A stretch of DNA of 64,000 bases from Rhodococcus oxybenzonivorans (GTDB taxonomy: Bacteria > Actinomycetota > Actinomycetes > Mycobacteriales > Mycobacteriaceae), in contig NZ_CP021354.1 of assembly GCF_003130705.1 (NCBI RefSeq), forward strand, positions 5,332,001-5,396,000, written 5' to 3'. The position numbers and the translations under genes are program-made. Shown one piece after another: positions 14,869 through 31,142 of the stretch; within the stretch, counting starts at the first letter, position 1; the number at the start of each line of letters is the position of its first letter. The notes beneath the pieces are model-generated. The model made no database searches. It saw only the letters and a list, made by a program, of their open reading frames with translations, and was not told where the DNA came from.

Positions 14869-16110
14869 ATGTGGCGCTACAGTGCGACAGTGGACTCACT
14901 ATGGCCGCGACCGAGCCGACGCGTCGCCGAGCTGATGCGCGACATCGCCGAGCGCCTGCTGGCCTCGACGAGCGCCGCAGTCGACGCGGTGCTGGCCGCT
15001 GCCCACGAGGGCGCCGAGTACCGCGCGCTGGTGGAGGACCCGCAGCTCGCGGCGGCCGACCGTCATATGAGCAAGGCTCACTTCAGGCACTGGCTGTCGG
15101 CCACCCTGCAGAATCCCGGGGCGCGAGTCGCGCCGTGCGTCGACCCGGAGGTCCTGCAGTTCGCGCGCGACCTGGTGCGACGCGGCCTGGACATGCACGA
15201 CCTCGGTTCGTGGCGGGGTGCCCAGCACGTTGTGTGGGACCTGTGGGTCGACGCCTGCTTCGCGGCGACCGCCGATGTCGAGGAGCTCCGCGACCTGGTG
15301 AAGGTGTCCGAGCGGTCGATGGTGACCTTCATCGACGATTCGATCGCGGCGCTCGACGAGTACGTCGAACAGGAACGCGCGGACCTCGCGCGGGGCGCCA
15401 ACGCCGAGCGGCACTCCACCGTCCAGCTCTTGCTCGAAGGTGCCCCGATCGGCCGGGCGCTGGCCGAATCGCGTCTCGGGTATGCGCTGACGGGCAGCCA
15501 CGTGGCCGCGATCATCTGGAGCGGCTCCACCGACGAGGCCGCGGGTCTCGACGCGGTCGCCGAGGCCGTGATGAGGATATGCGCGGCCCCGCGCCGGTTC
15601 ACCCTGAACGCGAGCGCGACCGCGCTGTGGGTGTGGGTGCCGGCGGACACGGTCCCGCCTGCCGAGACGGCGGAGGACACCCTGGCGGCCTACCCGGGGA
15701 TCCATGTCGCGTTCGGACGTTGCGGCCGGGATCTCGACGGATTTCGCCGTAGCCACCTGGACGCCGCCGCCGCTCAGCGATTACTGACGCGGATAGGCTC
15801 GGCGCGCCCCGTCGTCCGGTACGAGGACGTGGCGTTGGTGTCGGTGCTCACGGCCGACATGGCGCAAGCCGATCAGTTCGTCACCGACACCCTGGGAGAC
15901 CTCGCGACCGCCGACCCAGTGCTGCGGCAGACGGTGCTGACCTACGTCCGGGAACGGTTCAACGGCTCCGCCGCCGCGGAGCGAATGTTCACCCACCGCA
16001 ACACGATCGAGCGACGGCTTGCCCGCGCCGACCAGCTGCTGCCCGTGCCGCTCGCCGACAACGCCGCCAGCGTGGTCGCCGCGCTCATGCTCGTGCAGTT
16101 GCGCGACTGA
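14869..16110 (+). CDS. PucR-family transcriptional regulator
   Basis: The C-terminus VLTYVRERFNGSAAAERMF followed by THRNTIERRLARAD is the PucR helix-turn-helix (HTH_30), and the 413-residue length with a central GGDEF-like domain fits the PucR/CdaR family. Such proteins activate amine, purine or amino-acid catabolic genes in response to an effector. The gene is convergent with the end of the long minus-strand amine operon at 16176-28792 and is the nearest regulator to it. The ATG at 14869 lacks a clear ribosome-binding site, and in-frame starts at 14935 (MRDIAERL) are possible. Confidence 0.85.
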   Translation: MWRYSATVDSLWPRPSRRVAELMRDIAERLLASTSAAVDAVLAAAHEGAEYRALVEDPQLAAADRHMSKAHFRHWLSATLQNPGARVAPCVDPEVLQFARDLVRRGLDMHDLGSWRGAQHVVWDLWVDACFAATADVEELRDLVKVSERSMVTFIDDSIAALDEYVEQERADLARGANAERHSTVQLLLEGAPIGRALAESRLGYALTGSHVAAIIWSGSTDEAAGLDAVAEAVMRICAAPRRFTLNASATALWVWVPADTVPPAETAEDTLAAYPGIHVAFGRCGRDLDGFRRSHLDAAAAQRLLTRIGSARPVVRYEDVALVSVLTADMAQADQFVTDTLGDLATADPVLRQTVLTYVRERFNGSAAAERMFTHRNTIERRLARADQLLPVPLADNAASVVAALMLVQLRD

Positions 16111-16123
16111 CGGGCGGTGCCCG
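16111..16123. terminator. Short hairpin between convergent genes
   Basis: CGGGC-GGT-GCCCG starts right after the PucR stop codon, in the 65-base gap to the convergent imine-reductase-like gene. The stem is only 5 bp with a 3-base loop and no T-run, so it is a weak terminator candidate. Confidence 0.3.
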
Positions 16124-16175
16124 CTGCGGCTTTGTGAGCGCCGCTGCCCGAGTTCGCTCGATCGGGCGAGACCGC

Positions 16176-17054
16176 TCACCCGGTGGCGATGATTCTCGTC
16201 TGGGCTGCGAAGCCGAGGTCACCTAGTCCGGCATCGACAGCCGCGGTCAGATTCTCGATCGTGGCGGCGAACACCCGGGGGTTCAGCCCGGTTTCCTTCA
16301 TGACGTCGATGGCCCCGTCCAGGCCCTGGGCGTAGGTGGCGATGGTTGCTTGATCTGTGGTGAAATCGCCGCTGGCAATGGCAGTTACGACCCTCGCCGT
16401 CTCACTCTGGACGGACGCGAAGGCGGCAGGCGTCAAGGCGTCGAGGAGGGGCTGATCAACTCCCTGCCCGAGCATGTAGGTCGATGCCTCCACATAGGCG
16501 CTGACCGCCGGGACCAGGAACATACCGACAAGTCCTACGTTCAGAACGCTTGCGATCTTGACGTCTCGGGACACCCAGACGGACACCGGGGTCAGCAAGG
16601 TCAGGCTCTCGCCGTGCTCGGCCCAGGCAGTTTCGGATCCGGAATAGAGGATCGCCGCCCCCTCGGTGCCGATCTCTGCGGGATACCCGAGGATCGACCC
16701 GTCCAAGTACTCGGCACCGCGTTCGCCGGCCCAGAGCCCGAAGGATTCGACTTCCGAGGGAGCGCCGGTGCCCACATTGACGAGCGTGGTGCCGGTCAAA
16801 TCCGGCACGGGCTCGAGGGCCGCGAGGGCGGCGTCGTAGGTGGCGAAGCACGCCAGGACAAGCGGCGCGGCAGCGATGGCGTCGCCAATTTCCCGCATGG
16901 GCGCAATCGCGTTGTCGGTCAGTGCGGCTGCCCGGTGGTGCGTGCGGTTCCAGACGGCGACGGTCTTGCCACCGCCGGCGAGTGCCCGTGCGAGCGCCGA
17001 CCCCATCAGGCCACAGCCGAGCACTGTGACGTCATGCGAGGTGGTCTTGTCCAT
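16176..17054 (-). CDS. NAD(P)-dependent oxidoreductase, imine-reductase/beta-hydroxyacid dehydrogenase-like
   Basis: The 292-residue protein has an N-terminal Rossmann motif VLGCGLMGSALARAL with VWNRT at the end of the second strand, which favours NADPH. An all-helical C-terminal half of the 6-phosphogluconate/3-hydroxyisobutyrate dehydrogenase type follows. The lysine normally found in GxxxKxxNN of beta-hydroxyacid dehydrogenases is not at that place (VKIASVLNVG instead). This favours an imine reductase-like function over hydroxyacid oxidation, but it is an inference. GGAGAAGAG directly precedes the ATG at 17054. It is the last gene of the minus-strand amine operon, 101 bases after the aldehyde dehydrogenase, where it might reduce a cyclic imine formed from an amino aldehyde. 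Confidence 0.75.
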   Translation of the reverse strand: MDKTTSHDVTVLGCGLMGSALARALAGGGKTVAVWNRTHHRAAALTDNAIAPMREIGDAIAAAPLVLACFATYDAALAALEPVPDLTGTTLVNVGTGAPSEVESFGLWAGERGAEYLDGSILGYPAEIGTEGAAILYSGSETAWAEHGESLTLLTPVSVWVSRDVKIASVLNVGLVGMFLVPAVSAYVEASTYMLGQGVDQPLLDALTPAAFASVQSETARVVTAIASGDFTTDQATIATYAQGLDGAIDVMKETGLNPRVFAATIENLTAAVDAGLGDLGFAAQTRIIATG

Positions 17055-17155: not shown

Positions 17156-18625
17156 CTACATCGGCAGATCAGGCGAGTCGACTCCGACGACCCGATCTCC
17201 GCAGAACACCCGCACCGATTCCGCCGGACCGTGCCCGCCGATGCCGGACGGGCCCCAGAAACTCTGGGCGGAGTCGTCGCCGAGATCGGCGAGCTTCGCG
17301 CCGTTGACCCGCACCTCGCCGGACGTGACCCGAGCACCGATCGTTATCGCGCGGTCGGTGTCAACGCCGAACACATAGGCGTCCAGGCCCGATGGGTGCG
17401 CGTTGGCGGCGCGCAGCGCGTCCTCGTCGGAATCCACGCCGTGCACGGAGACGACCGGCCCGAACAGCTCGGCCGTCGTACGGTCCGGGTCGGACCCGGT
17501 GGCTACCGTCGGTGACAGGAAGAAGCCCGCCAGGCCCGGCAGCTCCCCGGGCTGATCGATCTCGGCGCCGAGCCCGCGCAAGCCCTCGATCCGCTCGATC
17601 AGGTTCCGGAAGTGCGGCTCGTTGGAGATCGGGCCGATGTCGGATTCCACGTCGAGCGAGTGCCCGATCCGTAGCCGCGCGATGCGCTCACCGAGAGCCT
17701 CGCGCAGCGGTCGCACCAGCCGGTGCGGTGCCAGGACCTTGCCCGGCCCCTCGCACCACTGGCCGTTGAGGGTCGTCAGGCCTGCGAGGATCCCGTCGGC
17801 GGTCACGTCGAGGTCGGCGTCATCGAGCACGAGCACGGGGTTGTTGCCGCCGAGTTCGAGCTGCAGAACCTTGAAGTCCTCGGCCGCGGCGCGAGCGATG
17901 GCCCGACCGGCGCCCGGGCCGCCGGTGAAGGACACTACCTTGACTCGGCGGTCACCCGTGAGCGCGGCGCCGATGCCGCCCGTGCCGTGGACGAGCTGCA
18001 ACGCGCCCTCGGGCAGTCCGGCGTCGACGAAGCACTCGACGATCACCTGCGCGCTGGCGGGAGCGTGCTCGGACGGCTTGAGCAGCACCGGGCACCCCGA
18101 CGCCACCGCGCTGGCAATCTTCGCCGCCGGGATGAAGCTCGGGCCGTTCCACGGCGTCAGGATCGCCGCGGGCCCCCAGGGCACCCGGTACAGCCGGACG
18201 TCTCGCCCGCCCGCGGCGAGCGCGGTGACACGAGCGATCCCGCGCGCCTCGGCGGCGGCCCCGCGGATTCGGGCCGGGAGGAACGTGGCGAGTTTGCGGG
18301 TGGCGGTGATCGTCGTGCCGCTGGTGATCGCGTCGGTGCGGGCGATTTCCTCCAGCCGCTCCTCGACGTTGGCCGCGGCCCGTTCGAGCACCTCGGCCCG
18401 CTCGAGCCGGAACTCGTCATCGGCCCAGTTGAGCGCTTCGTAGGCGCGCTGGGCGTGCTGCAGCGCGCGCTCCAGGTCGGCGGGCGATGTGGTCACCATG
18501 CGGTGGACCGGCTCGCCCGTGTTCGGGTCGACGTTCCATCCGTCGAGCGTCTGGCAGGACACCCACTCACCGGCGATGTAGCTCACCGGCTGCGCGAGTG
18601 ACGTTGTCGGCGTCGTGGTGTTCAT
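17156..18625 (-). CDS. Aldehyde dehydrogenase (NAD(P)-dependent)
   Basis: The 489-residue enzyme has the canonical ALDH catalytic set: N160 in TPWNGP, K183 in LLKPSEHAP, E258 in LELGGNNP and the nucleophile C291 in NGQWCEGPGK. The FTGGPGAGR loop near residue 233 is the NAD-binding turn. It oxidises an aldehyde to the acid. The ATG overlaps the stop of the upstream alcohol dehydrogenase (ATGA), so translation is coupled. In the proposed gamma-glutamyl amine pathway it takes the PuuC role, oxidising gamma-glutamyl-amino-aldehyde, though a plain aldehyde from the alcohol dehydrogenase is equally possible. Confidence 0.92.
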   Translation of the reverse strand: MNTTTPTTSLAQPVSYIAGEWVSCQTLDGWNVDPNTGEPVHRMVTTSPADLERALQHAQRAYEALNWADDEFRLERAEVLERAAANVEERLEEIARTDAITSGTTITATRKLATFLPARIRGAAAEARGIARVTALAAGGRDVRLYRVPWGPAAILTPWNGPSFIPAAKIASAVASGCPVLLKPSEHAPASAQVIVECFVDAGLPEGALQLVHGTGGIGAALTGDRRVKVVSFTGGPGAGRAIARAAAEDFKVLQLELGGNNPVLVLDDADLDVTADGILAGLTTLNGQWCEGPGKVLAPHRLVRPLREALGERIARLRIGHSLDVESDIGPISNEPHFRNLIERIEGLRGLGAEIDQPGELPGLAGFFLSPTVATGSDPDRTTAELFGPVVSVHGVDSDEDALRAANAHPSGLDAYVFGVDTDRAITIGARVTSGEVRVNGAKLADLGDDSAQSFWGPSGIGGHGPAESVRVFCGDRVVGVDSPDLPM

Positions 18626-19752
18626 CGGGCCTCCTCCGCGGTGGGGTTGTCGGAACGGATCGGCATGGCGACGACGATGCGGGTCACCTCGCCGGACTTC
18701 ATCGCCTCGAAGCCCTCGTTGATCCGGCCGAAGTCGATGACCTCGGTGACCATTTCGTCGAGCAGCAACCGGCCGTGCTGGTACAGCCGGGCGAACTGGG
18801 CGATGTCCTCGCGCGCTTGCCCCGAGCCCATGTACGAGCCGATCAGGCGCTTCTCGCTGAAGAAGAAGTCGGACGCGGGCAGGGTCAGCTCAGTGCCCGC
18901 GGCAGCGATGCCGACGAGGCAGGCCGTGCCGGTGGGACGCACCACGTCGAGGGCCGCTGCCGCGGTGCGGGCGGATCCGACGGCCTCGAAGGAGTAGTCG
19001 ACGCCGTCGCCCAGCAGGGCGACCACCGCGGCGGCGAGGTCGTCGGTGGCACCGTTCAGGGTGTGGGTCGCGCCGTAGCCGCGGGCGGCACGAAGCCGCT
19101 GCTCGTCGAGGTCGATCGCGACGATCGCGGACGCGCCCGCGAGCCGCGCCCCCTGGATGATGGCCGAGCCGACGCCACCGCAACCGATCACGGCCACCGT
19201 GGAGCCCGGCCGCACCCGCGCCCCGCGGAACACCGCGCCGACACCGGTGACGACGCAGCACGACAGCAGGCAGCCGACCCGGGTGGACACGCCGTCGGGC
19301 AGCTTCACGGCCGCGTTCGCGCGCAGCAGCATGTGCTCGGAGAACGCGCCCAGGTCACCGAGCCGGGCGACCGGTGTCCCGTCGGGCAGGGAGTACGCCG
19401 GCCGCGGGCGGCGCCGGATCTCGTCGAGCCGCTGGCACTGGGTCGAACGGGCCGCGTTGCAGTTCGCGCACTCGCCGCACGCCGGGGTCAGCGCGCCGGT
19501 GACGTGATCGCCCGGACGTAGGTCCGTGACGGCCGAGCCGACGGATTCGACGATGCCCGCCACCTCGTGCCCGACTACCACCGGCAGCTCGGTCGCGACG
19601 GTGCCGGTGATGTAGTGCAGGTCGCTGTGGCACAGCCCGACGTGGGTGACGGCGATCCGCACCTCGTGCGGCTCGGGATCGTCGACGTGGATGTCGGTCA
19701 GGTGCAGGGGTCCGCCCACCTTCGTGAGCACAGCCGCGCGGGTGGTGATCAT
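18622..19752 (-). CDS. Zinc-dependent alcohol dehydrogenase (class III-like MDR)
   Basis: The 376-residue medium-chain dehydrogenase has the catalytic zinc ligands in GLCHSD and GHE, structural-zinc cysteines in ACGECANCNAARSTQC and the Rossmann motif AVIGCGGVGSAIIQGA. It interconverts an alcohol and an aldehyde with NAD(P). Its ATG overlaps the stop of the fused ligase/hydratase gene and its stop overlaps the aldehyde dehydrogenase start, so all three are in one operon. It may oxidise an amino-alcohol-derived intermediate to the aldehyde used by the ALDH. Confidence 0.92.
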   Translation of the reverse strand: MITTRAAVLTKVGGPLHLTDIHVDDPEPHEVRIAVTHVGLCHSDLHYITGTVATELPVVVGHEVAGIVESVGSAVTDLRPGDHVTGALTPACGECANCNAARSTQCQRLDEIRRRPRPAYSLPDGTPVARLGDLGAFSEHMLLRANAAVKLPDGVSTRVGCLLSCCVVTGVGAVFRGARVRPGSTVAVIGCGGVGSAIIQGARLAGASAIVAIDLDEQRLRAARGYGATHTLNGATDDLAAAVVALLGDGVDYSFEAVGSARTAAAALDVVRPTGTACLVGIAAAGTELTLPASDFFFSEKRLIGSYMGSGQAREDIAQFARLYQHGRLLLDEMVTEVIDFGRINEGFEAMKSGEVTRIVVAMPIRSDNPTAEEAR

Positions 19753-22181
19753 CGGTTCTCTCCGGTCGAGGTGGCGGGCTTCTTGGCGCTCCAGAAACCC
19801 TCGATACCCGCGGTGAACGCGCCGCTGTTCCACGACACGTCGGCCGCGGCGTCCTCCAGGACGAAGGCGCGTTCGATCTCCTCGGACGAGGGCCGCAGCA
19901 GCGCCAGGTGCAGGGCGGTGTTGCCGCCCTCCGGCGTCCAGGCGTGGACGAGGTCGATCGCGCGGTCCAGCAGGTCGCCCGGCTCGACGATCTGATCGAG
20001 CAGACCTATCCGCAGCGCTTCCTCTGCGCCGATGCGCTCGGAGCCCAGTACCATCCGCATCGCGTGATTGCGCACGATCCGGGTGAGGAGCACGCTCGAC
20101 GCGTTGGAGATCGTGAGGCCGCGGGCGTTCTCCGGCTGGAAGTACTCGGTCCGCGGGGTGCCGAGGCGCGCGTCGCAGCACAGCGTGATCTCCGAGGCGC
20201 CGCCCACCGCGATCCCGTTGATCGCCGCGACCACGGGCACCTTGGTCTCGATCACCGCGCGGGTGACGTCGTGGAAGGTCTCGAAGGTCTCGCGCATCTC
20301 GGCGAACGTGGTCGGCGGCGCGCCGAGGTCCTCGCCCGCGCTGAACGCGCGGCCCGTGCCCGTGATCACGATTCCCCGTGCGCGCTCGCCGGTGCCGTAT
20401 TCGCGGATGAGCGCGGCGAGGCGCAGGCGCATCTCGACGGTCAGAGCGTTGAGCTTCGCCGGGCGCCGCAGCGTGATCACGGCGGTATCGCGGATCACCT
20501 CGACGAGCACGTGTTCGGCCGCCAGGTCCGACGGCGCCGCAGCGGAGCCTGCCGGGGGCCGGTCGCGGAGGTCGAAGGTGGTGCCGGGGGCTTCGGCCGC
20601 CCTGGCTTTGAGCGCGGGCTTCGACACCCGCTCCGACGGAGTTCGGGGGAAGGCTGCGACGAATTCGACATAACGCGGCACTTTGAACCGCGCGAGCCGC
20701 TCCGCGACCCGGCCGATGATCGCTTCGGCCGTCGCCCGGTCCCAGGTGCCGCCCGCCACGAGCTGGACGAATGCCTTGACCTCCTCGCCGAGCACCTCGT
20801 CGGGCTCGGCCACGACCGCGGCCGCGACGACGCGGTCATCGGTTTCGAGCGCTGCCTCCACCTCGGCGCTTGCCACGTTCTCGCCGCCGCGCCGCACCAT
20901 GTCCTTGATGCGGCCGACCAGGCGGATCTCGCCCCGCTCGTCGGCGACGGCGAGGTCGCCGGTGTGCAACCATCCGTTCCGCAGTGTCCGCGCGGTCTCC
21001 TCGGGCCGGTTCCAGTAGCCGAGCATCATCGGCGCGCCGGACACGGTCAGCTCGCCCGGGGTACCCGCGGGGACCTCGGCGCCGTCGGTGTCCACTAGCC
21101 TGACGCGCTTGGTCGGCATGGGCCGTCCGATGCTGCCGCTGCCGACGGCCCCGGCATCGTCGAGCGGGCTGATCAGGTCGATCCCGCTCTCGGTCATGCC
21201 GAAGAGCTCTCGCCAAGGCGCACCCCAGCGGTCCTCGAGCTGGGCGTGCAGCGCCGCGGGGATCGCGGAGCAGAACACCGCGCGCAGATGGTTGTCCCGA
21301 TCGTCGGCGGCGGGCGGCTGCTTGAACAGCAGCGTGGGCATCGATCCGAGGACATAGCAGAAGGTCACCCGGTGGCGCCGCACGTCGGCCATGAACCCCG
21401 ACGCGGAGAACCGCGGCAGCACCACCAGCGGCGCGCCCGCGGTCAGGGCGAGCACCGTGTTCCACTGCGGATCCATGTACGAGAAGGGCTGCGCCGTGAG
21501 CAGCACGTCGTCGCCGCCGAGGCCGGCCGCCCCGGCGCAGCCCCACGCGATGCGGGTCCAGTAGTCGTGGGTCAGCATGCACGCCTTCGGGAATCCGGTG
21601 GTGCCCGAGGTGTATTGCAGGTTGGCCAGCGTGTCCGGGGTGATCGCGACATCGGGGGCGGTGGCCGGGAAACTCGCCTCGGCCGCGTCGGCCACGTCGA
21701 GGATGCGGATGCCCGCGAGCGCGGCGTCTCGGGAGACCACGTCACGTACCAGCGGGAGGTGCTCGGCGTCGGTGACGATGACCCGCGCGCCGGAGTCGCG
21801 AAGCACGAACTCGAGATCGGCCGCGCGGTAGGCCGAGTTGACGGGCACGACGACAGCGCCGGCCTTGAGGACCGCGAACCAGGTGAGCGGCCACTGCGCG
21901 ACGTTGGGCAGCATGATCGCGACGCGGTCGCCCGGGGCCACGCCGTCGGCCTCGATCAGGCGGTGTGCCAGCCGCGACGACGATACGTCGGCCTGCGCGT
22001 AGGTCCACGAAGCGTCGCCGAAGCGCAGCAGCTCGGCGCCGGGGGTGCGAGCGGCGCCGTCTGACAGCAGGCCGGTGACCGTGCGCACCCTGGGCGTCGC
22101 CCCCATCTGGTCGTGGGTGACGGCGGGGTGCCGCGGTGTTTCGTCCCTGGTTGTTGTCGCGGTTGTCGTGTCAGTGGACAT
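19749..22181 (-). CDS. Fused AMP-dependent acyl-CoA ligase / enoyl-CoA hydratase
   Basis: One 810-residue open frame carries two enzymes. Residues about 1-540 are an ANL acyl-CoA ligase: YTSGTTGFPKA near 188-198, WNRPEETA, WLHTGDLAV and VGRIKDMVRRGGENV. Residues about 565-810 are a crotonase with VITGTGRAFSAGEDLG and INGIAVGGASEI, the two oxyanion-hole loops, and PENARGLTIS. The usual ligase end TPTGKV is TPSERVSK here, so the position of the catalytic lysine is altered, a variant also known to me from carnitine-CoA-ligase-like proteins. The ATG at 22181 follows AGGAG and overlaps the preceding amidotransferase gene by 11 bases. Activation and hydration of an acid in one chain would suit channelling of an unsaturated acyl-CoA. 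The frame is uninterrupted between the halves. Confidence 0.88.
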   Translation of the reverse strand: MSTDTTTATTTRDETPRHPAVTHDQMGATPRVRTVTGLLSDGAARTPGAELLRFGDASWTYAQADVSSSRLAHRLIEADGVAPGDRVAIMLPNVAQWPLTWFAVLKAGAVVVPVNSAYRAADLEFVLRDSGARVIVTDAEHLPLVRDVVSRDAALAGIRILDVADAAEASFPATAPDVAITPDTLANLQYTSGTTGFPKACMLTHDYWTRIAWGCAGAAGLGGDDVLLTAQPFSYMDPQWNTVLALTAGAPLVVLPRFSASGFMADVRRHRVTFCYVLGSMPTLLFKQPPAADDRDNHLRAVFCSAIPAALHAQLEDRWGAPWRELFGMTESGIDLISPLDDAGAVGSGSIGRPMPTKRVRLVDTDGAEVPAGTPGELTVSGAPMMLGYWNRPEETARTLRNGWLHTGDLAVADERGEIRLVGRIKDMVRRGGENVASAEVEAALETDDRVVAAAVVAEPDEVLGEEVKAFVQLVAGGTWDRATAEAIIGRVAERLARFKVPRYVEFVAAFPRTPSERVSKPALKARAAEAPGTTFDLRDRPPAGSAAAPSDLAAEHVLVEVIRDTAVITLRRPAKLNALTVEMRLRLAALIREYGTGERARGIVITGTGRAFSAGEDLGAPPTTFAEMRETFETFHDVTRAVIETKVPVVAAINGIAVGGASEITLCCDARLGTPRTEYFQPENARGLTISNASSVLLTRIVRNHAMRMVLGSERIGAEEALRIGLLDQIVEPGDLLDRAIDLVHAWTPEGGNTALHLALLRPSSEEIERAFVLEDAAADVSWNSGAFTAGIEGFWSAKKPATSTGENR

Positions 22182-22938
22182 ACTCGATCTCCTGCCGTTT
22201 TCTCGATTCATCGACGATCCAGGCCATAGCCGGGTCGTCGCGTTCCATCCACTCGGGGTGCCACTGCACACCGAGGATCGGCGCGCCGGGCACCTCCACG
22301 GCCTCCGCGACCCCGTCGGGCGTGCGGCCCGTGACGACAAGGCCCGTGCCGCACCGGTCGACGGCCTGGTGGTGCCACGAGTTGGTGACGACGCTGGCGC
22401 CGAAGATCCGCGCGGCCGTGGAGCCGGGTTCGAAGCTCACGCGGTGCTCGGCGTCGCCGTCGGTGGGCGCGGCCAGCGGCGACAAGTGCGGCACCGGGCC
22501 GGGCGGCAGGTCCGCGATGAGCGTTCCGCCCAGTGCGACGTTGAGCAGCTGCATTCCCCGGCACACCCCGAGCACGGGCAAGCCGCGGTCGATGGCGGCG
22601 CGGGCCAGGGTGAACTCGTATTGGTCGCGTTCGGGGTCGTGCGCGTGGGGATCGAGCCGTGGGTCGACGTCGCGGACAACGGAGGTGTCGCCGCCCCACC
22701 GGGCCGGGTGCACGTCCTGCCCGCCGGTGATCACCACGCCGGACAACCACTCACAGGCATCGAGCGGATCGGCGTCGTAGGGCAGGTGCACGGGCACGCC
22801 GCCCGCTGTCGCGACGCGGGTGGCGAAGGCGGCCACGAACGCGTCGACGCACGCCGTGGCGTAGCGGTCGTCCGTTCCGGCGATCAGACTCAGCTGGACG
22901 CGGCGGCCGGTGATCCCGACCAATGGCTTGCCCGTCAT
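22171..22938 (-). CDS. Class I glutamine amidotransferase-like, PuuD-type gamma-glutamyl hydrolase
   Basis: The 255-residue protein has the GATase I nucleophile C126 in LGVCRGMQL and the histidine/glutamate pair H227 and E229 in WHPEW, with TGGQDVHP upstream. This is the pattern of gamma-glutamyl-gamma-aminobutyrate hydrolase (PuuD), which removes glutamate from a gamma-glutamylated amino acid. The ATG at 22938 overlaps the stop of the glutamine-synthetase-like gene. That pairing of ligase and hydrolase is the strongest sign that the operon protects an amine by glutamylation and later frees the product. Confidence 0.88.
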   Translation of the reverse strand: MTGKPLVGITGRRVQLSLIAGTDDRYATACVDAFVAAFATRVATAGGVPVHLPYDADPLDACEWLSGVVITGGQDVHPARWGGDTSVVRDVDPRLDPHAHDPERDQYEFTLARAAIDRGLPVLGVCRGMQLLNVALGGTLIADLPPGPVPHLSPLAAPTDGDAEHRVSFEPGSTAARIFGASVVTNSWHHQAVDRCGTGLVVTGRTPDGVAEAVEVPGAPILGVQWHPEWMERDDPAMAWIVDESRKRQEIEYVH

Positions 22939-24308
22939 GGGAACTCGAAGTAGCGACGGGACTCCCACGCGGAGAGTTCGGCGTACGGGTCGCCGCCCTT
23001 GGTGTGGAATTCCATCCATTCCCACCGGCGCGAGGCCACCCAGAAGTCGACGAACTCGTCACCCAGGTACTCACGGAGCACCTCGTCGCCGTCCAGCGCC
23101 GCGATGGCCTTGGTGATCGAGTCCGGGACCCGCTCGACCCCGGTGTCGTCGGGCAGGCACCACGCCATGTCGTCGACCTGCGGCGGGGCCTGCATCCTCC
23201 GTTCGATGCCTGCCACAACCCCGGCCAGCACACCGGCCAGGGCGTAGTACGGGTTGACGTCCGAGCCCGGCAGCCGGTACTCGAGCCGCGAGTACTTGGG
23301 GTGCCCGACGATGGCCCGCACCGCCGCGGTCTTGTTGTTGACGCCCCAGGAGATGGTCGTCGGTGGGCCGCTGATGTCGACGAGGCGCCGGTACGAGGTG
23401 ATCTGTGGCAGCGACAGCAGGGTGTTTCCCGCCATCGTCGTCAGCAGCCCACCGACGGCCTGCAGCATCACCTCGGACGGTCCGTCGGGTGCGAAGAACT
23501 GGTTCTCACCGTCCCGGTGCAGCGAGAGGTTGATATGCGCGCCCTGCCCGAAGCCTGCGGTCGGCTTGGCCATGAACGTCACCGTCCGGTCCTGCTCGAA
23601 CGCGACTTCCCGCATCACTTGCTTGGTGCGCACCCAGAAGTCGCCGAGCGCCACCGGATCGGTGGGTGCGAGATTCAGCTCGGTCTGGCCTGCGGCCGCC
23701 TCGTCGGTCCACGCTTCCCAGGTGATGCCGAGCTCGTCGAGCCGGTCGGTGACGGCCTCCATGTAGTCGACCCAGTCCTTCGACCTCGCCAGGTGATACG
23801 TGGCACCGGTATCCCCACCGAGCGGGGTGAGATCGCGGTAACCGCGGGCCCGCGCCTGCTGGACGGACTCCTCGAACAGTGTCGTTTCGATTTCCACCGC
23901 GACCGTGGCGGTGTAGCCGAGCGCCCGCAGTCGCTCGACCAGCCTGCGCACCATATTCCGCGGACAGATCGGTACCGGCCGCCCGTCCCGGAGCCAGTAG
24001 TCACCGATGACGGCGCCGAGGCCGGGCTTCCACTCCACCAGCGTGTCCATGTCGGGAATCATCGAGATGTCGTAGAGGTTGCCGCGCCAGTCCGGAAAGG
24101 CGTCACCGAACACGAACTCGTCGCCCAGGTCGATCGCGAACAGGATGTCGGCGAAGGCGAAGCCCGACTCCTTGCCGGACGCGAACTTCGCCGGCGTGAT
24201 GGTCTTTCCCAGGAAGCTCCCGTCGTGACCGGTGGCCTCCAGGCGGATCGCCTTTGTCGGTACTTTCCACGCGGAGCTGATGGATTCCGACGGGGTGAGC
24301 TCAGACAT
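22935..24308 (-). CDS. Glutamine-synthetase-family gamma-glutamyl-amine ligase (PuuA/GlnA3-like)
   Basis: The 457-residue protein keeps the glutamine synthetase fold markers, including GAHINLSLH, SRLEYRLPGSDVNPY and EIETTLFE. It lacks the long adenylylation-type C-terminus of housekeeping GlnA. In actinobacteria such extra glutamine synthetases ligate glutamate to polyamines or ethanolamine rather than to ammonia. Directly downstream, with 4-base overlaps, are the PuuD-like hydrolase and further oxidoreductases. The APC permease upstream would supply the amine. It overlaps the SCP2-like gene by 8 bases. The amine cannot be deduced, since active-site residues for substrate choice are not well enough defined to read here. 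Confidence 0.85.
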   Translation of the reverse strand: MSELTPSESISSAWKVPTKAIRLEATGHDGSFLGKTITPAKFASGKESGFAFADILFAIDLGDEFVFGDAFPDWRGNLYDISMIPDMDTLVEWKPGLGAVIGDYWLRDGRPVPICPRNMVRRLVERLRALGYTATVAVEIETTLFEESVQQARARGYRDLTPLGGDTGATYHLARSKDWVDYMEAVTDRLDELGITWEAWTDEAAAGQTELNLAPTDPVALGDFWVRTKQVMREVAFEQDRTVTFMAKPTAGFGQGAHINLSLHRDGENQFFAPDGPSEVMLQAVGGLLTTMAGNTLLSLPQITSYRRLVDISGPPTTISWGVNNKTAAVRAIVGHPKYSRLEYRLPGSDVNPYYALAGVLAGVVAGIERRMQAPPQVDDMAWCLPDDTGVERVPDSITKAIAALDGDEVLREYLGDEFVDFWVASRRWEWMEFHTKGGDPYAELSAWESRRYFEFP

Positions 24309-24960
24309 CGAAACGAACCTTCCACGAGGCGGCCGTCATGACCGACACCTGCGAGAGCGTCCCTTGGACCCGCAGCCCGGAGTCCAGGGAGGTGAGGAGA
24401 TAGTCGGCGCCCGTGAACACCCCGGCGAGCGCGTCGGGCGTGCCGACCATGCGGTAGGTCGTCGGGCCCGAGCCGAACCGGGCCTCCTGGGGGCCGTCCG
24501 GCCCCTGCGCGACCGCGATGAGGACGTCGGGGATGCCGCGGATGCCGCGGGTCACCTCCCAGAAGCGCTCGGCGGCCGCCTGCCACGAGGGCAGTGGGTG
24601 CTGTAGAGCGCGCAGTACACCGTCAGCCAGGTCCGCGTCACCGTCGGGGTCCTGGGTGAGCGCGAAACGGGCTTCGAGGTCGACGACCAGCGTCGCGTCG
24701 GCCGGCGCGAAGACGCCGCCGGTCACGGTGACGGCGCCGTCGCACAGCGTGACGGTGGCGGCCTGCGGGGTGTTGTGCGAGCGGACGGCGACCGTCCCGA
24801 TGCCGCGATCGAACACCTCGGGCAGATGGCCGAGCCGGACCGCGTCGCGCAGGGTCCGGCCGAGCAGCCGGACGATGGGAGTGGCGTCGTCGTCGATCTC
24901 GATCGGGGCCGGCGCGCGCTGCGCCGCCGGGCCAGGCGCGATCGTCGGGGTTTCGGTCAT
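24301..24960 (-). CDS. Uncharacterised protein, possible SCP2-like domain
   Basis: The 219-residue protein has a strand-rich N-terminal half (VAVRSHNTPQAATVTLCDGA, VTGGVFAPADATLVVD) and a C-terminal segment SGPTTYRMVGTPDALAGVF, SGLRVQGTLSQVSVM. These patterns resemble an SCP2 (sterol carrier protein) fold, a small hydrophobic-ligand-binding module, but the match is by eye. The second ATG (24960) was preferred to the one at 24966 because AAAGG then lies 7 bases away. It sits between the APC permease and the glutamine-synthetase-like gene in the same operon and may be an auxiliary binding or carrier protein. No catalytic residues are evident. Confidence 0.6.
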   Translation of the reverse strand: MTETPTIAPGPAAQRAPAPIEIDDDATPIVRLLGRTLRDAVRLGHLPEVFDRGIGTVAVRSHNTPQAATVTLCDGAVTVTGGVFAPADATLVVDLEARFALTQDPDGDADLADGVLRALQHPLPSWQAAAERFWEVTRGIRGIPDVLIAVAQGPDGPQEARFGSGPTTYRMVGTPDALAGVFTGADYLLTSLDSGLRVQGTLSQVSVMTAASWKVRFDV

Positions 24961-25016: not shown

Positions 25017-26444
25017 TCATTCGAGGGCGGCGTAGGTCTGCGGCCGACGCCGGCGCAGGAGCGGCGACCATGCGAGGCCGCAGGCGAACGCCCCGGCGAT
25101 GACCGCGAGGAAGACGTAAGCCCCGGTGCGCGACCCGATCAGGAGCTCGAAGTTGCCGATGACGAGCACGAGGATCGCCCCGAGCGCGGCGAGCGACAGG
25201 ACGGGGGCGACGGTGCCCGTCCACGCCGTAGCCGTGCCGACCTTGCGGAAGTGGACGACGATCGCCGCGGAGGTCAGGGCCAGCAGCACGATCAGCCCGA
25301 GGGTTCCGGCGCCGCCGAACCAGGCGTAGATCTCGACGACGGGGTCGAGCCCGGCGATCGCCGTGGCCGCGAGCAGCGTGCCGATCACCCCGGAGGTCAG
25401 CAGCGAGGCCACGTGCGGCGACCGGTGCGTGGGGTGCGCCGATCCGAGCGAGACCGGCAGAGCGCCCTGGCGGCCGAGGGCGAACAGGTAGCGGGCCACC
25501 ACGTTGTGGGCGGTGAGAACGCATGCGAAGAAGCTGGTGACGAGCAGAACCTGCATGACATCGTGGGCGGCCTGCGACAGGTAGCGGGTGGCGAGCCCGG
25601 GTGCGAGTCCTTCGGGGTCGTCGGCAGCGAGGTCGACGGCACGCGCGACGCCGAGACCGTTGATCATGGCCCAGGACGAGAAGGCATAGATCAGCGCGAT
25701 CAGGACGACCGCGATGTAGGTGGCCTTCGGGATCGTCCGGTCGGGGTCCTGGGCCTCGGACCGGAAAACGGCGGTGGTCTCGAACCCGACGAAGCCGAAG
25801 ACGGCAAACATGATCCCGGTGCCTGTGGCACCGGTGGTGAACGCGTCCCAGGTCAGCGGCTGCGCCGAGAGGCCGTTGTCGCCGCCGCGCAGCACGACGG
25901 CGAGGTCGACGAGGGCGACGATCGCGACCTCCGCGATGAGCAACGCGCCGAGCACCCGCGCGCTGACCTCGACGTTGCGGTAGCCCAGGTACCCGATGGC
26001 CGCGAGCCCGGCGGCCGCGAGGCACCACCACGGCACCGACACACCGGAGAAGGTCACGAGCACATTGCGCGCGGCAGCCCCGAGGTAGGCCGAGACGGCG
26101 ACGATGAGCAGCGCGTAGGTCACCAGGGCGAGCGCTGCGGCGCCCAGCCCGGCACCGGTGCCGAGGCCGCGCTGGACGTAGGAGTAGAAAGCGCCCGCGT
26201 TGCGTACTTCAGGAGTCATCGCCGAGTACCCGACGGTGAACAGCACGAGCACGATTCCGACGAGCACGAAGTCGACCGGTGTCCCGATGCCGTTCCCCGA
26301 GCCGAGCATCAACGGGATGAGTCCGGCGAACACCGTCAGGGGCGCGGCCATCGCCACCACCATGAAGACGATCTGCGGGACGCCGAGTGTCCGGTCCAGG
26401 CCGACCGGGACCTCCTGCGCCCGGTCTTCGCTCTGCTGACTCAT
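25017..26444 (-). CDS. APC-family amino acid/amine permease
   Basis: The 475-residue inner-membrane protein has about twelve hydrophobic segments, starting MSQQSEDRAQEVPVGLDRTLG and the first segment IVFMVVAMAAPLTVFAG. GFVGFETTAVFRSEAQDPDR is the typical loop after segment 6 of the amino acid-polyamine-organocation family. The ATG at 26444 was chosen over the longer open frame since family members begin here. It heads the tightly packed part of the operon and should import the amine or amino acid that the GS-like ligase glutamylates. Between it and the broken hydrolase is a 280-base stretch that looks like a deletion joint. Confidence 0.88.
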   Translation of the reverse strand: MSQQSEDRAQEVPVGLDRTLGVPQIVFMVVAMAAPLTVFAGLIPLMLGSGNGIGTPVDFVLVGIVLVLFTVGYSAMTPEVRNAGAFYSYVQRGLGTGAGLGAAALALVTYALLIVAVSAYLGAAARNVLVTFSGVSVPWWCLAAAGLAAIGYLGYRNVEVSARVLGALLIAEVAIVALVDLAVVLRGGDNGLSAQPLTWDAFTTGATGTGIMFAVFGFVGFETTAVFRSEAQDPDRTIPKATYIAVVLIALIYAFSSWAMINGLGVARAVDLAADDPEGLAPGLATRYLSQAAHDVMQVLLVTSFFACVLTAHNVVARYLFALGRQGALPVSLGSAHPTHRSPHVASLLTSGVIGTLLAATAIAGLDPVVEIYAWFGGAGTLGLIVLLALTSAAIVVHFRKVGTATAWTGTVAPVLSLAALGAILVLVIGNFELLIGSRTGAYVFLAVIAGAFACGLAWSPLLRRRRPQTYAALE

Positions 26445-26664
26445 GCCAACCACTCCATTCTGTGGCGCCTCTCCGCGACCTGAATCACCCGACATCTACG
26501 ACCGACCGGTATGCATTTCAGGGAACGAAAGACAGCCACCTGCGAATTCTGTGAAACGGAAACGAACGATCAGGAAGGTGGACGGTTTCGGACGCCGACG
26601 CCCGCACCAGGTCCGCGCCGCCGCGCCGGGGAGGCTCGGTTACACCCGAGATCGTCGGCCTGCG

Positions 26665-26736: not shown

Positions 26737-27288
26737 ACTGATGCCCTTTCGAGGTGTCCCACGACGTGGTCGGCGACGAGGAGCGCGAGCGCGTCGGGCA
26801 GGTGGTGCCCCATTCCGGGAATCACCACGTGCCGTGCATGCGGAATCGCGGCAGCGGTGGCGGTGCCTCCGGACGGCGCGACGATGGGGGTAGCGCGCCG
26901 CGACGGTCTGCGCGATCATCCCGCCCATCGAGCGCCCGATGAGGTGCGCCGGTCCCCGACCGAGGTGCTCGATGAGCTGCGCGGCATCGGCCGCCATGTC
27001 GGCCAGCGTGTACGCGTCCGGACGGGGCCGGGCGAGCAGTTGCCGTAGCGTGCTTGGTGGCGGGGTGATCGCGTAGGTCGAGCGGCCGCAGTCCCGGTTG
27101 TCCATCCGGATCACCTGAAAGCCGGTCGCGACGAGCGCGGAGACGAACCGCTCGGACCACATCGTCAAGTCCTCGCCGAGGCCGGCGAGGAGCAGGGCCG
27201 GCGGGTCGCCGGGATCGCCGTCGATTCGGTAGCAGACACGCGTGCCGCCCGGGAGGGTGACGAAGCGGTCCTGGGCGTCGTCACGCAC
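26724..27288 (-). pseudogene. Alpha/beta hydrolase with internal deletion
   Basis: The N-terminal part is a normal alpha/beta hydrolase: LPGGTRVCYRIDG, LLLAGLGEDLTMWSERF, RMDNRDCGRS and the nucleophile elbow IGRSMGGMIAQTVAARYP. Right after AARYP the frame changes, and in another frame the C-terminal end follows, GGTATAAAIPHARHVVIPGM and GHHLPDALALL, ending at TGA 26724. About 100 residues, including the cap and the acid residue, are missing. The GTG start at 27288 overlaps the stop of the monooxygenase gene (GTGCGTGA), so it was once the second gene of the operon. It was probably an esterase/lactonase acting on the ester made by the monooxygenase. Confidence 0.75.
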
Positions 27289-28792
27289 GGATCGCCTCCC
27301 CTGCGGTCGAGCGTGCACTGTCGTCGGTGGTGGAGCTGAACCGCAGCGCGTCGTCGAGCAGGGGGCCACGGAGCAGCTTGGCGTCCTGCGGGTACGACAT
27401 CGACATCTGCCACAGGCCGGTGCCCTGCTTCGGGGTGCTCTCGCGGGCCCGTTGCGCGTAGCCCGCGCTGAGGTCCATGACCGGGCGCGTCTCCATGCCG
27501 GGATCGGCCTCGACGACGACTCGGTCGTAGCCGAAGGCGTCCATGTGCTTCACCAGGTTGCAGAAGTAGCGGCACAGGATGCCGACCTTCAGCGTCCACG
27601 ACGAGGTCGTGTAGCCGATGGCGATCGCCAGGTTGGGGATCCCCGAGAGCAGGGTGCCGCGGTAGACGACAGAGTCGGCGAGGTTCACCGGCACGCCGTC
27701 GACCGCCAGGTCGATGCCGCCGAGCAGGCGCACGTTGAGGCCGGTCGCGGTGATGATCACGTCGGCGTCGAGGTGCTCGCCCGATTCGAGCTGGATCCCC
27801 GACTCGGTGAAACGCGAGATCCGGTCGGTGACGATCGAGGCGCCGCCGGCACGTAGTGCGGCGAAGAAGTCGCCGTCGGGCGACAGACACAGGCGCTGAT
27901 CCCACGGGTCGTAGGGCGGGTTGAAGTGGGTGTCCACGTCATAGCCCTCGGGCAGCAACTTCTTGTTGATGCGCCGGATCAGCGCGCGACCCAGACGGGG
28001 GAACGTGCGTAGCGACTTGACCACGCCCCGATCGATCCAGATGTTGTTGAACCGGGTGATCGCGTAGCCGCGTCGTTCGCCGAAGAGCCGGGTGAACAGG
28101 AGCGCGAGGGAATCGACCTTCGGCCACGGCATCACGTACGTGGGGGTGCGCTGGAGCATGGTCACATGAGCGGCGGCGCCCTCACCGGTGAGCATCGACG
28201 GGATCAGCGTCACCGCGGTCGCGCCGCTGCCGATCACGACGACCTTCTTGCCCGAGTAGTCATATCCCTCGGGCCAGTGCTGCGGGTGGATGATGTCGCC
28301 GCCGAAGTCCTCGCGACCCTCGAAATGCGGGGTGTAGCCCTCGTCGTAGCGGTAGTACCCGGTGCCCGCGAAGATCCAGTTGGCGGTGATGGTCTTGTCG
28401 CCGTCGGCGGTGTGCACGTCGATCGTCCAGCGCGCGTCGGCGCTCGACCACTCCGCGCGCTGCACGCCGTGCCCGAGCCGGATGAGCCCGCCCAGGTTGT
28501 TCTCTTCGACCGTCTCCTGCAGGTAGTTCCGGATCTTGGGGGCTTCCGCAATGGCGGCGCGGTCCTTCCACGGCTTGAACTCGTAGCCGAAGGTGTGCAG
28601 GTCGGAATCGGATCGGATGCCGGGGTACTTGAACAGATCCCAGGTGCCGCCGATATTGTCGCGCCCTTCGAGCACGACGACGCGTTTGCCGGGAAACGCC
28701 TCGACGATGTAGCGCGCGGCGCCGATGCCGGAGATGCCGGCACCGATGATGACGATGTCGAACTCCTCGGTTCGTTGCTTCGATGCGTTCAT
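27281..28792 (-). CDS. Flavin-dependent Baeyer-Villiger monooxygenase, EthA-like
   Basis: The 503-residue protein begins FDIVIIGAGISGIGAARYI, then IGGTWDLFKYPGIRSDSDLH. It contains GREDFGGDIIHPQHWPEGYD, which holds the Baeyer-Villiger/FMO fingerprint (FxGxxxHxxxWP-like), and VVVIGSGATAVTLIP for NADPH binding. The order and spacing match mycobacterial EthA, which oxidises ketones to esters and also thioamides. It is the first gene of the minus-strand operon; its promoter lies in the 272-base gap before the divergent gene at 29065. A ketone formed in amine catabolism could be its substrate, with the hydrolase remnant once cleaving the ester. Confidence 0.9.
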   Translation of the reverse strand: MNASKQRTEEFDIVIIGAGISGIGAARYIVEAFPGKRVVVLEGRDNIGGTWDLFKYPGIRSDSDLHTFGYEFKPWKDRAAIAEAPKIRNYLQETVEENNLGGLIRLGHGVQRAEWSSADARWTIDVHTADGDKTITANWIFAGTGYYRYDEGYTPHFEGREDFGGDIIHPQHWPEGYDYSGKKVVVIGSGATAVTLIPSMLTGEGAAAHVTMLQRTPTYVMPWPKVDSLALLFTRLFGERRGYAITRFNNIWIDRGVVKSLRTFPRLGRALIRRINKKLLPEGYDVDTHFNPPYDPWDQRLCLSPDGDFFAALRAGGASIVTDRISRFTESGIQLESGEHLDADVIITATGLNVRLLGGIDLAVDGVPVNLADSVVYRGTLLSGIPNLAIAIGYTTSSWTLKVGILCRYFCNLVKHMDAFGYDRVVVEADPGMETRPVMDLSAGYAQRARESTPKQGTGLWQMSMSYPQDAKLLRGPLLDDALRFSSTTDDSARSTAGEAIRA

Positions 28793-28895: not shown

Positions 28896-28974
28896 GTGCA
28901 CAGTGCACTGCGCGCGCCTTTGAGATGCCGATCACACGGCCTCGTGGTGCAGTGTGTCGCGGCTGGCGCGACAC
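28896..28974. promoter_or_regulatory. Divergent control region with inverted repeats
   Basis: Between the monooxygenase operon (minus) and the membrane protein/oxidase pair (plus), two signals stand out. GTGCAC-A-GTGCAC lies at 28896-28908, followed by a related GTGGTGCAGTGTG at 28944-28956. A perfect 8-bp inverted repeat GTGTCGCG/CGCGACAC with a 5-bp centre lies at 28954-28974. They are good candidates for operators of a regulator coordinating both units, possibly the PucR protein. Confidence 0.45.
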
Positions 28975-29064
28975 GTGGTTGCACGTCGGCGTAGCGGGCG
29001 TCCTCATGGGCACGCCACTGTGGAGGCCACACGAGATCACGGACACTCCCAAGGAGGCGCTGCC

Positions 29065-29769
29065 ATGCGCGACATTCTTTTCGCCGCGGCGGACATCTGG
29101 ATGATCGTCGTCGGATTCATCTGCGGCGTGAAGTTCATTCGGCGCCATCACAACTATTTGATTGGTCTCGAATGGATCATCATGGCCGTCTCGGGGACCA
29201 ATTTCCTGCTCTACGGGGTGACCAAGTCCGGCACCGATTCCCCGATGTACCACATCGCCTTCTTCTTGGACGCGTTCTCGCGCTCGATCGGGTTCACGCT
29301 GATCCTGGTCCTCGGGTTGCTGGTCGTCACGCACAGGTACAAGCCCACGCTCGGCGTCGAGGTGGGCGCGTTCGCCCTGGCCGCGATCCTCGGGTTCTTC
29401 CTGTCCGAGTACGCCGAGGAGATCGGCACGCCGGGCAAGGTGTTCTTCTTGATCACCGCGCTCGCGACCTCCGGCTTCCTGTGCTACTTCGCGTGGCGCC
29501 TCTGGGAGCTCGGCGAACGCGCCCACGCCGCGTGGGCGGCGTGCGCCACCGCGCTGAACGTGGTCGTCGCCTCGATCTACGACTTCTGGCGAATTCCGGG
29601 CGACGACGCCAACCACACCCTCTTCTACACCCTCGCGCTGTTCACCTGGGGCCTGGCGATGCTCGTCATCTACCGGGCGTATACGGCCTTCGCTGCCCAC
29701 AACAAGCGGGACGACGCACACCTCGATCCGACCGCCGCCTCCCCCGTCCGAGGAGCTGAAATCGCATGA
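29065..29769 (+). CDS. Multi-pass membrane protein of unknown function
   Basis: The 234-residue protein consists of about seven hydrophobic segments (for example DIWMIVVGFICGVKF, IGFTLILVLGLLVV, VGAFALAAILGFFL, LFTWGLAMLVIYRA). It ends in a hydrophilic tail rich in aspartate and alanine. The ATG at 29065 follows AAGGAGG at good spacing. Its stop overlaps the start of the PuuB-like oxidase (ATGA), so the two are co-translated. I do not recognise the family; a role as a substrate channel or a membrane partner of the oxidase is only a suggestion from position. Confidence 0.7.
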   Translation: MRDILFAAADIWMIVVGFICGVKFIRRHHNYLIGLEWIIMAVSGTNFLLYGVTKSGTDSPMYHIAFFLDAFSRSIGFTLILVLGLLVVTHRYKPTLGVEVGAFALAAILGFFLSEYAEEIGTPGKVFFLITALATSGFLCYFAWRLWELGERAHAAWAACATALNVVVASIYDFWRIPGDDANHTLFYTLALFTWGLAMLVIYRAYTAFAAHNKRDDAHLDPTAASPVRGAEIA

Positions 29770-31142
29770 GCTCTACCGCGAACACGACCTACACCACCTT
29801 CACCGGGTGGGTCGATCCGCCCACCGACATCCGACCACCGCTGACGGAGAACTTCACCTGCTCCGTCGCGGTCATCGGCGGCGGGCTCGCGGGCATGGCG
29901 ACGGCGCTGCGACTCGCGGAGCGTGGCGTCGACACCGTGCTGCTGGAGTCGGACTTCTGCGGGCACGGTGCGGGCTCGCGCAATGCCGGCCAACTGGCGA
30001 GCGCGCCCGGCGGCGACATCCAGCTGCTGAATCTGCTCTACCGCAAGGGCATGCCAGCGATCATCCGCCTCACCGAGAACGCCGCCGGCCACGTCGAGAG
30101 CATGATCGAGAAGCTCGGCATCGACTGCGACTACGAAGCCGTCGGCAACGTCTTCGCGGCCGTCTCGCGCGGACAGCTGGGACGCACGCGCCGCATCGCG
30201 AAGATCCTCCGCCGTGCCGGTGCCCACGTCGAGGAGGGCACGGCACGCGAACTGGGCATCCCGCACGGCTTCCTCGGCGGCATGCGCGAAATCAAGGGCG
30301 GAATCATGAACCCCGGCAAGCTCCTACGTGGCCTTCGCAGCGCGGTGCTCGCCTCGACCGTGCGGGTCTTCGAGCAATCAAAGGTCGTCGACATCGTTCG
30401 CGGCAATGGCGGCGTCACTGTCGAGACACCCGGCGGCGTGATCCTGGCGCAGAAGGTGGTGCTGGCCACGAACGCCTATGCGGGCGAGTGGGACATCACG
30501 CCGAAACGCCTATCGTCACCGATGTGGGTGACCGAGGTCGAAACCGAGCCGATCTCCCCGCAACGTCTCGCCGCGCTCGGTTGGACCAGCCGATCCGGAC
30601 TCATCACACAGCACAACATCATGGAGAACTACCGACTCACCGCACGCAACACCATCGTGTTCGGCGTCCGCCAGATCGAGCGTGCCGCAAGCTATCCGCT
30701 GCCCGAACGCCATCCCGACCCGGCGGTGGTCGCCGACCTCGCGAAGGCATTCGCACGACGCTTCCCGCCGCTGGCGGACGTCGCGATCGACCGCACCTGG
30801 GGCGGGTGGATCGGGATCACCTCGACCTGGCTACCGGTGGCCGGCACGGTCGGCGACGACGTCTACTACTCCCTGGCCTGCAACGGCCACGGACTCGCCC
30901 AGGCCACCTACGTCGGGACCCTCATCGCCGATCGGATCGCCACCGGCATCACCCCGGACGATCTGCGCACCATCTGGGTCGACGAACCGAAATTCGGCCA
31001 CGCGGTGCCGATGATCATGGGGAGGCTCGGGCTGCGCGCGGCATGGACCGCAGACAGGTTCAACGACATGATCAACGGCAGCAAGCGCCACGCGCGCGAG
31101 GGATTCGCCACTGCCGCGGGTGGCTTCACCGCCCCCGCGTAG
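29766..31142 (+). CDS. FAD-dependent amine oxidase, DAO/PuuB-like
   Basis: The 458-residue protein has the Rossmann motif VAVIGGGLAGMATALRLAER near residue 36, then LLESDFCGHGAGSRNAGQLA, CDYEAVGNVFAAV and SLACNGHGLAQATYVG. Together these are the succession seen in gamma-glutamylputrescine oxidase. It is a paralogue of 998-2302. It should oxidise the amine nitrogen of a gamma-glutamylated or free amine to an aldehyde, which the aldehyde dehydrogenase at 17156 could take on. It is co-translated with the membrane protein upstream and divergent from the GS/PuuD operon, which together makes a Puu-like set. Confidence 0.85.
   Translation: MSSTANTTYTTFTGWVDPPTDIRPPLTENFTCSVAVIGGGLAGMATALRLAERGVDTVLLESDFCGHGAGSRNAGQLASAPGGDIQLLNLLYRKGMPAIIRLTENAAGHVESMIEKLGIDCDYEAVGNVFAAVSRGQLGRTRRIAKILRRAGAHVEEGTARELGIPHGFLGGMREIKGGIMNPGKLLRGLRSAVLASTVRVFEQSKVVDIVRGNGGVTVETPGGVILAQKVVLATNAYAGEWDITPKRLSSPMWVTEVETEPISPQRLAALGWTSRSGLITQHNIMENYRLTARNTIVFGVRQIERAASYPLPERHPDPAVVADLAKAFARRFPPLADVAIDRTWGGWIGITSTWLPVAGTVGDDVYYSLACNGHGLAQATYVGTLIADRIATGITPDDLRTIWVDEPKFGHAVPMIMGRLGLRAAWTADRFNDMINGSKRHAREGFATAAGGFTAPA

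Follow-up and report, generated by a model that had tools for sequence, protein, structure and literature searches.

What do the genes at positions 16176 to 31142 of a 64-kb stretch of the Rhodococcus oxybenzonivorans genome (C1:5332001-5396000 of 8.0 Mb; hereafter the window) do together? A first-pass annotation had read them as a Puu-like pathway, in which an amine is gamma-glutamylated, oxidised, released and degraded as an acyl-CoA, next to Baeyer-Villiger chemistry. The explanation that we consider best, and to which we grant slightly less than an even chance, is that these genes form a catabolic route for an amine that would carry a gamma-glutamyl cap, its carbon chain being cleaved by a Baeyer-Villiger reaction, and that this module has spread horizontally among actinobacteria. 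The genes are collected in Table 1.

Relatives of the locus were found by searching with peptides of its glutamine synthetase (GS)-like protein, and the resulting sample of 30 loci is therefore biased toward loci with a GS. By tblastn, 28 of the 30 related contigs carry one block consisting of a gene that we call X, the GS-like gene, a C26 glutamine amidotransferase (GATase), a CoA ligase/hydratase, an alcohol dehydrogenase (ADH) and an aldehyde dehydrogenase (ALDH); the exceptions are L023, which is rearranged and has no ADH, and L030, which is cut by the contig end. The 30 loci come from several actinobacterial families (genera Rhodococcus, Nocardia, Amycolatopsis, Streptomyces, Gordonia, Tsukamurella, Nocardioides, Pimelobacter, Aeromicrobium, Haloechinothrix and Mycobacterium), and because the same gene order recurs among them a chance neighbourhood was set aside. 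The gene families amount to a conserved accessory module in Actinomycetota. The module is scarce: two of 296 class genomes, our own included, have it at E <= 1e-150 (five candidates scored per genome, among the matches listed), and a GS match of at least 65% occurs in five of the relatives' 61 genomes, again with our own (G000, G001, G018, G019 and G024), reaching 98% in the same-genus genome G001.

For the gene counts of Table 1, 33 sequences were clustered, namely the 30 related loci, a second copy from the same genome (L037), the region around a different GS of that genome (L038) and the window. Gene calls were heuristic: starts can be misplaced, and some genes count as absent because they were missed in calling or lie at a contig end; the GS of L034, for example, was uncalled, yet was partly found by tblastn. 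Accessory-gene markers divide the loci into two types, labelled A and B for this analysis. Type A, the window-like one, has an Abhydrolase_1 gene and usually an amine oxidase of the type we call c15, an APC permease and a PucR regulator. Type B has an Abhydrolase_3 gene, usually with an amine oxidase of type c9 and a TetR regulator, and in some cases an MFS transporter (10 loci) or a thioesterase (8 loci). Markers are mixed in L014, L023, L035 and the window. Two distant variants on plasmids, with GS identities of 54% and 48%, keep X, GS and ADH together with ALDH, FMO (flavin monooxygenase), GATase and a PhyH dioxygenase; in both, ADH is the gene adjoining GS. One of them also carries gabT and a succinate-semialdehyde dehydrogenase, as a gamma-aminobutyrate (GABA) product would need, and the other a reductase-like gene. 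Separately, L023 (Tsukamurella sp. PLM1) has split FMO and permease matches and its ligase and GATase on the opposite strand, which also points to decay or frameshifts.

The first-pass reading depended on the GS-like gene not being a normal glutamine synthetase. The flap position reads GPP in all 31 relatives in which the gene was called, the window included; with the flap Glu of true GS gone, we set aside plain glutamine synthetase as its identity. Aligned to GS chains, and with the roles customarily given to active-site residues (metal, glutamate site, flap Glu), the window protein keeps most metal and glutamate-site residues and has Lys at one Arg position. NpaA1 and its kin, which glutamylate aromatic amines, are likewise reported without the flap Glu, and also without Asp50', in the available text of PMC11335346. 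Judged by sequence, such a ligase, with a C26 hydrolase and an ALDH as neighbours, is consistent with the capping of an organic amine by gamma-glutamylation.

Gene X, hidden in the open reading frame list by a longer start, lies between the permease and GS. In 31 loci it lies directly beside GS in the same orientation; the overlap is 8 nt in 22 of 31, as in the window, and the gap is at most 20 nt in 24 of 31 by the heuristic calls. The two genes also overlap in both plasmid variants, as annotated. X has no Pfam match up to E=1. Its AlphaFold2 (AF2) model, with a predicted local distance difference test (pLDDT) score of 87.7, matches SCP2 with both halves in a fold search, and X is thus predicted to be a protein with two SCP2-like domains. 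A search made without regard to gene context gave matches at E <= 1e-3 to 154 of the 7995 proteins scored; the 120 listed are 55-93% identical to the window protein, and the family looks like a narrow one. A partner of this predicted fold points to a hydrophobic substrate.

How far, then, is this a Puu pathway? The families that the first-pass annotation had named between 16176 and 31142 (APC permease, GS-like enzyme, C26 GATase, ALDH, ADH, flavin monooxygenase, RedAm-like enzyme and DAO) are those returned by Pfam and NCBIfam. Its ligase/hydratase fusion is genuine as well, a single frame with PF00501 and PF13193 followed by PF00378; several type-B loci have ligase and hydratase as separate genes, and the fusion is therefore a variant of two neighbours. 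Read against the usual motifs, GATase, ALDH, ADH, ligase and hydratase all have their catalytic residues. The scores do not confirm a complete set of PuuA, B, C and D. GS reaches 183.1 bits against the gamma-glutamylputrescine synthetase model NF045547 (cut-off 650) and the GATase 73.8 bits against the PuuD (gamma-glutamyl-GABA hydrolase) model NF008471 (cut-off 266). No PuuB-named model is among the best 25 of 38 for the DAO protein (top TIGR03329, 135.7 against 632.8 bits), and no PuuC-named model among the best 25 of 41 for the ALDH (top HpaE, 262.3 against 638.35). A polyamine pathway built on counterparts of PuuA-D, with CoA and Baeyer-Villiger enzymes added, would share its superfamilies with the cluster (GS, DAO, ALDH and C26 GATase); given these scores, a monooxygenase, a hydrolase and a CoA ligase that polyamines do not need, and an SCP2-like partner that hints at a hydrophobic substrate, we regard it as quite improbable.

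The FMO carries both motifs that we take to be the fingerprint of type I Baeyer-Villiger monooxygenases (BVMOs), FxGxxxHxxxW[P/D] and [A/G]GxWxxxx[F/Y]P[G/M]xxxD, as do 29 of the 30 called FMOs, the window's included; the exception is a 326-aa fragment in L023. A same-strand hydrolase adjoins FMO in 30 of 30 FMO loci (in the window as a broken remnant) and belongs to one of two clusters, of which one member each was assigned by Pfam to Abhydrolase_1 and Abhydrolase_3. An amine oxidase lies within three genes of FMO in 24 of the 30 loci, once on the opposite strand, and again there are two types, c9 and c15, only 28-30% identical to each other. That hydrolase and amine oxidase families are swapped in the same slots argues for an order of oxidase, BVMO and hydrolase.

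This FMO-hydrolase pair, found in the same stretch in 30 of the 33 clustered sequences, is what an amino-alcohol route like ethanolamine use by GlnA4 of Streptomyces coelicolor would have to leave aside. There, GS would cap an amino alcohol, ADH and ALDH would oxidise it and the GATase would free the amino acid, with FMO, hydrolase and amine oxidase serving another, linked substrate. Such a route is unlikely, though it deserves some weight: the available text of PMC6529630 lists, for the Streptomyces glnA4 cluster, a GATase and a putative transporter besides a dehydrogenase and an ALDH, and GS and ADH are neighbours in both plasmid variants. The ligase-hydratase has no obvious place in it. A cyclohexylamine-like route would instead use the pair, an amine oxidase giving a cyclic ketone, the BVMO a lactone, the hydrolase a hydroxy acid and ADH and ALDH a diacid for the ligase/hydratase, with GS and GATase acting on a second amine or in another branch. 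The c15 oxidase, read from L008, does match monoamine (307 bits), putrescine (270 bits) and cyclohexylamine oxidases (242 bits) in the PDB. With an alicycle bearing one amine, however, no role would be left for the most constant genes, which are GS, GATase and X, and we give this route very little credence.

The gap between permease and FMO is not simple intergenic DNA, since it holds the remnant of two genes. Hydrolase and amine oxidase are both intact at this place in L007 (R. koreensis) and in L008 (Pfam-checked in the latter); relative to L007, the window has lost about 0.34 kb inside the alpha/beta hydrolase and about 1.4 kb of the flavin amine oxidase. L011 likewise has no called amine oxidase in that slot, and its hydrolase-permease gap is about 0.5 kb. 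An intact c9 oxidase, which shares 69% identity with the L018 amine oxidase and 80% with that of the second copy, may stand in for the lost c15 enzyme.

The second copy lies at about 2.49 Mb of the same genome (G000:C1 ~2486000-2505800; L037 and L072) and comprises hydrolase, X, GS, GATase, TetR, MFS, ligase, hydratase, ADH, ALDH, a different FMO, thioesterase, DAO, U (the membrane protein gene found beside DAO) and a c9 amine oxidase. That two adjacent genes carry deletions, and that the same functions are encoded elsewhere in the genome, is what one would expect if the window copy were a decaying locus without a working pathway and only the second copy were active. We consider this improbable, as tblastn matches to R. 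koreensis cover the remaining cluster genes over their length at 90-98% and the c9 oxidase lies only about 4 kb from the operon.

From the families, motifs, conserved gene order and broken genes described above, we infer the following reactions, their sequence and the kind of substrate for the capped-amine route. The APC permease would import the amine. A flavin amine oxidase (c9 here, c15 in intact type-A relatives), the DAO-U pair or both would then oxidise the carbon bearing the nitrogen either to a ketone or to a cyclic imine, which would open to give an amino ketone. X would hold the hydrophobic amine while the GS-like enzyme, with ATP, caps the free amine with gamma-glutamate and so blocks closure to the imine. 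Acting as a BVMO, FMO would turn the ketone into an ester or lactone, whose cleavage by the alpha/beta hydrolase would leave an acid and an amino alcohol still bearing the gamma-glutamyl group. Oxidation of the alcohol end by ADH and ALDH would give a gamma-glutamyl amino acid, from which the C26 GATase would release glutamate and the amino acid; the ligase-hydratase, perhaps with the acyl-CoA dehydrogenase, would degrade the acid. In the window, the hydrolase of the ester-splitting step and the c15 oxidase are both broken, so that this copy may function poorly or may depend on the c9 oxidase together with a different hydrolase.

Such a scheme keeps part of what the first-pass annotation had proposed. 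The combination of glutamylation, CoA and Baeyer-Villiger chemistry finds partial support in the GS residues and flap loss, the BVMO fingerprint and the place of CoA ligase/hydratase in the conserved block, without the PuuA-D identities; its gene set and reaction order had left out X, the hydrolase, the amine oxidase that relatives have and the window has lost, and the c9 oxidase at 10624-12000. Its "long-chain or cyclic" amine was a fair guess, now backed by the predicted SCP2-like fold of X, and a hydrophobic, perhaps 2-substituted cyclic, amine appears to be the best-fitting substrate. In its most specific form, the proposal is that oxidation of a hydrophobic cyclic amine, such as a 2-alkyl pyrrolidine or piperidine, yields an imine, that the opened amino ketone is trapped by gamma-glutamylation (GS-like ligase with the tandem-SCP2 carrier), and that BVMO and hydrolase cut it into a fatty acid and an omega-amino acid; this version is distinctly doubtful.

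Several observations weigh against the capped-amine route. The hydrolase and the c15 oxidase are broken in the window, which is also one of six FMO loci (of 30) without an amine oxidase within three genes, and its GS has the Arg-to-Lys change in the active site. In the second copy, the different FMO has, by our reading of the sequence, Ser at the fingerprint His, and the hydrolase is only 40% similar. Both plasmid variants have PhyH dioxygenases and no annotated amine oxidase (in an incomplete gene table), and the FMO of the R. qingshengii variant reads FxGxxxHxxxW, its final P/D missing. More generally, FMOs bearing the BVMO fingerprint may also oxidise N or S, monoamine oxidase-type enzymes also produce aldehydes, and SCP2-like folds can also serve as scaffolds. 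The module may also serve two substrates, or combine an amino-alcohol route with a distinct ketone route.

That the module would have moved between lineages, the other part of our explanation, draws on the GS tree and on the edges of the match to R. koreensis. In a type-A GS clade of 7 rows, whose inner fork is unresolved, sequences from Nocardiaceae, Pseudonocardiaceae and Streptomycetaceae lie intermingled and short distances apart. L032 has type-A accessory genes, yet its GS falls outside the 12-row type-A clade; the accessory genes have therefore moved relative to the core. The match between R. koreensis and the window, in pieces at 89-96%, runs from base 1 to 31148 and ends six bases past the DAO gene.

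Table 1. Features of the module and its surroundings in the window; counts are sequences with the gene among the 33 clustered.
Feature	Position	Strand	Evidence and remarks	Count
Flavin amine oxidase, c9 type	10624..12000	-	PF01593 134.7 bits; intact; type found in type-B clusters	
Acyl-CoA dehydrogenase	12052..14034	-	Same place in L007 and L008	
PucR-type regulator	14869..16110	+	PF17853+PF13556	13
RedAm/imine-reductase-like NAD(P) enzyme, optional	16176..17054	-	PF03446+PF21761	7
Aldehyde dehydrogenase	17156..18625	-	PF00171 330 bits	31
Zinc alcohol dehydrogenase	18622..19746 (start estimated from domain match)	-	PF08240+PF00107	30
Fused AMP-forming acyl-CoA ligase + enoyl-CoA hydratase	19749..22106 (start estimated)	-	PF00501, PF13193, PF00378	
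C26 gamma-glutamyl hydrolase (GATase)	22171..22938	-	PF07722 178 bits; likely start overlaps GS stop	31
GS-like ligase, putative gamma-glutamyl-amide ligase	22935..24308	-	PF00120 269.9 bits, cut-off 24	31
Gene X	24301..24960	-	219 aa; two tandem SCP2-like domains (predicted)	32
APC-family permease	25017..26495	-	PF00324/PF13520	15
Remnant of alpha/beta hydrolase + monoamine-oxidase-type flavoenzyme	~26660-27290	-	Both interrupted by deletions	
Flavin monooxygenase, type I BVMO fingerprint	27281..28792	-	Pfam + motif	30
U, seven-helix membrane protein beside DAO gene	29065..29769	+	AF2 pLDDT 85.9, seven long helices	28
DAO-family FAD amine oxidase/dehydrogenase	29766..31142	+	PF01266 178 bits	24

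Besides TIGR03329 (aminophosphonate oxidoreductase), the best model for the DAO protein is AmaA (pipecolate oxidase), likewise under its cut-off. U has no Pfam match, and its fold search gave weak matches to seven-helix receptors among those listed, none at E <= 1e-3; many of its relatives carry the source name "transporter", and transport and electron transfer are candidate roles. Further sets of genes lie on either side. Positions 998-9853 hold a second amine/acid set of DAO (998-2302), TetR, PhyH dioxygenase, AMP-ligase, flavin amine oxidase (5861-7243), MFS and thioesterase (9437-9853), which is matched in R. koreensis; PhyH also occurs in the distant GS plasmid variants. The catabolic set at 31341-41065, which begins past the end of the R. 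koreensis match, includes SDR, LysR, a shikimate-transporter-like MFS, shikimate-dehydrogenase-like, OYE-type, AKR and Gfo/Idh/MocA genes and an FAD dehydrogenase that passes the PRK12839 cut-off. GC content is about 0.70 in three 4-kb steps at 16-28 kb and at 36-40 kb, and 0.63-0.67 in the other steps. An Rfam scan of the window at gathering score gave 0 matches.

In open-access literature, which covers few subscription journals, we found no paper that pairs Baeyer-Villiger chemistry with glutamine synthetase and none on this cluster, in keeping with the first-pass annotation, to which no described pathway with this exact set was known; the search otherwise listed known gamma-glutamyl pathways or unrelated work. 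The component families are known and the combination was not found there, and we file the module, by its probable function, as a variant of gamma-glutamyl amine catabolism. If the capped-amine route is right, the use of gamma-glutamyl capping would extend beyond polyamines, ethanolamine, isopropylamine and anilines, for which it is known, to Baeyer-Villiger cleavage of a carbon chain, and the ligase would have a lipid-carrier-like partner. Genes without an assigned purpose across soil actinobacteria would then gain a testable pathway, and a BVMO/GS pair would become available for biocatalysis and the breakdown of pollutant amines.

Among known systems, the Puu (gamma-glutamylputrescine) pathway shares the GS-family capping ligase, DAO-family oxidase, ALDH and C26 GATase, to which the window module adds X, a Zn-ADH, a BVMO-type FMO, a hydrolase and the ligase-hydratase. 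In the isopropylamine (ipu) pathway the GS-like IpuC caps an alkylamine, and the window GS shares about 32% identity with a plasmid gene that is annotated as ipuC. To our knowledge, the ipu pathway has no BVMO cassette and NpaA1 and its kin have no SCP2-like partner. Cyclohexanone and acetone routes (BVMO, esterase, ADH and ALDH) place FMO beside hydrolase, ADH and ALDH as here, and are not known to include GS, GATase or X. According to the available text of PMC11335346, NpaA1 and its kin have, like the window GS, a GS fold with an altered amine site, their substrates being anilines and naphthylamines. The Streptomyces glnA4 ethanolamine cluster has a short-chain dehydrogenase where the window has a Zn-ADH, and its gene list, in the available text of PMC6529630, is without X, FMO, hydrolase, ligase and amine oxidase. 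It shares the GS-like ligase, a dehydrogenase, ALDH, GATase and a putative transporter, and ethanolamine use by GlnA4, in which the steps after GlnA4 are themselves predictions, is the closest described logic (PMC6529630).

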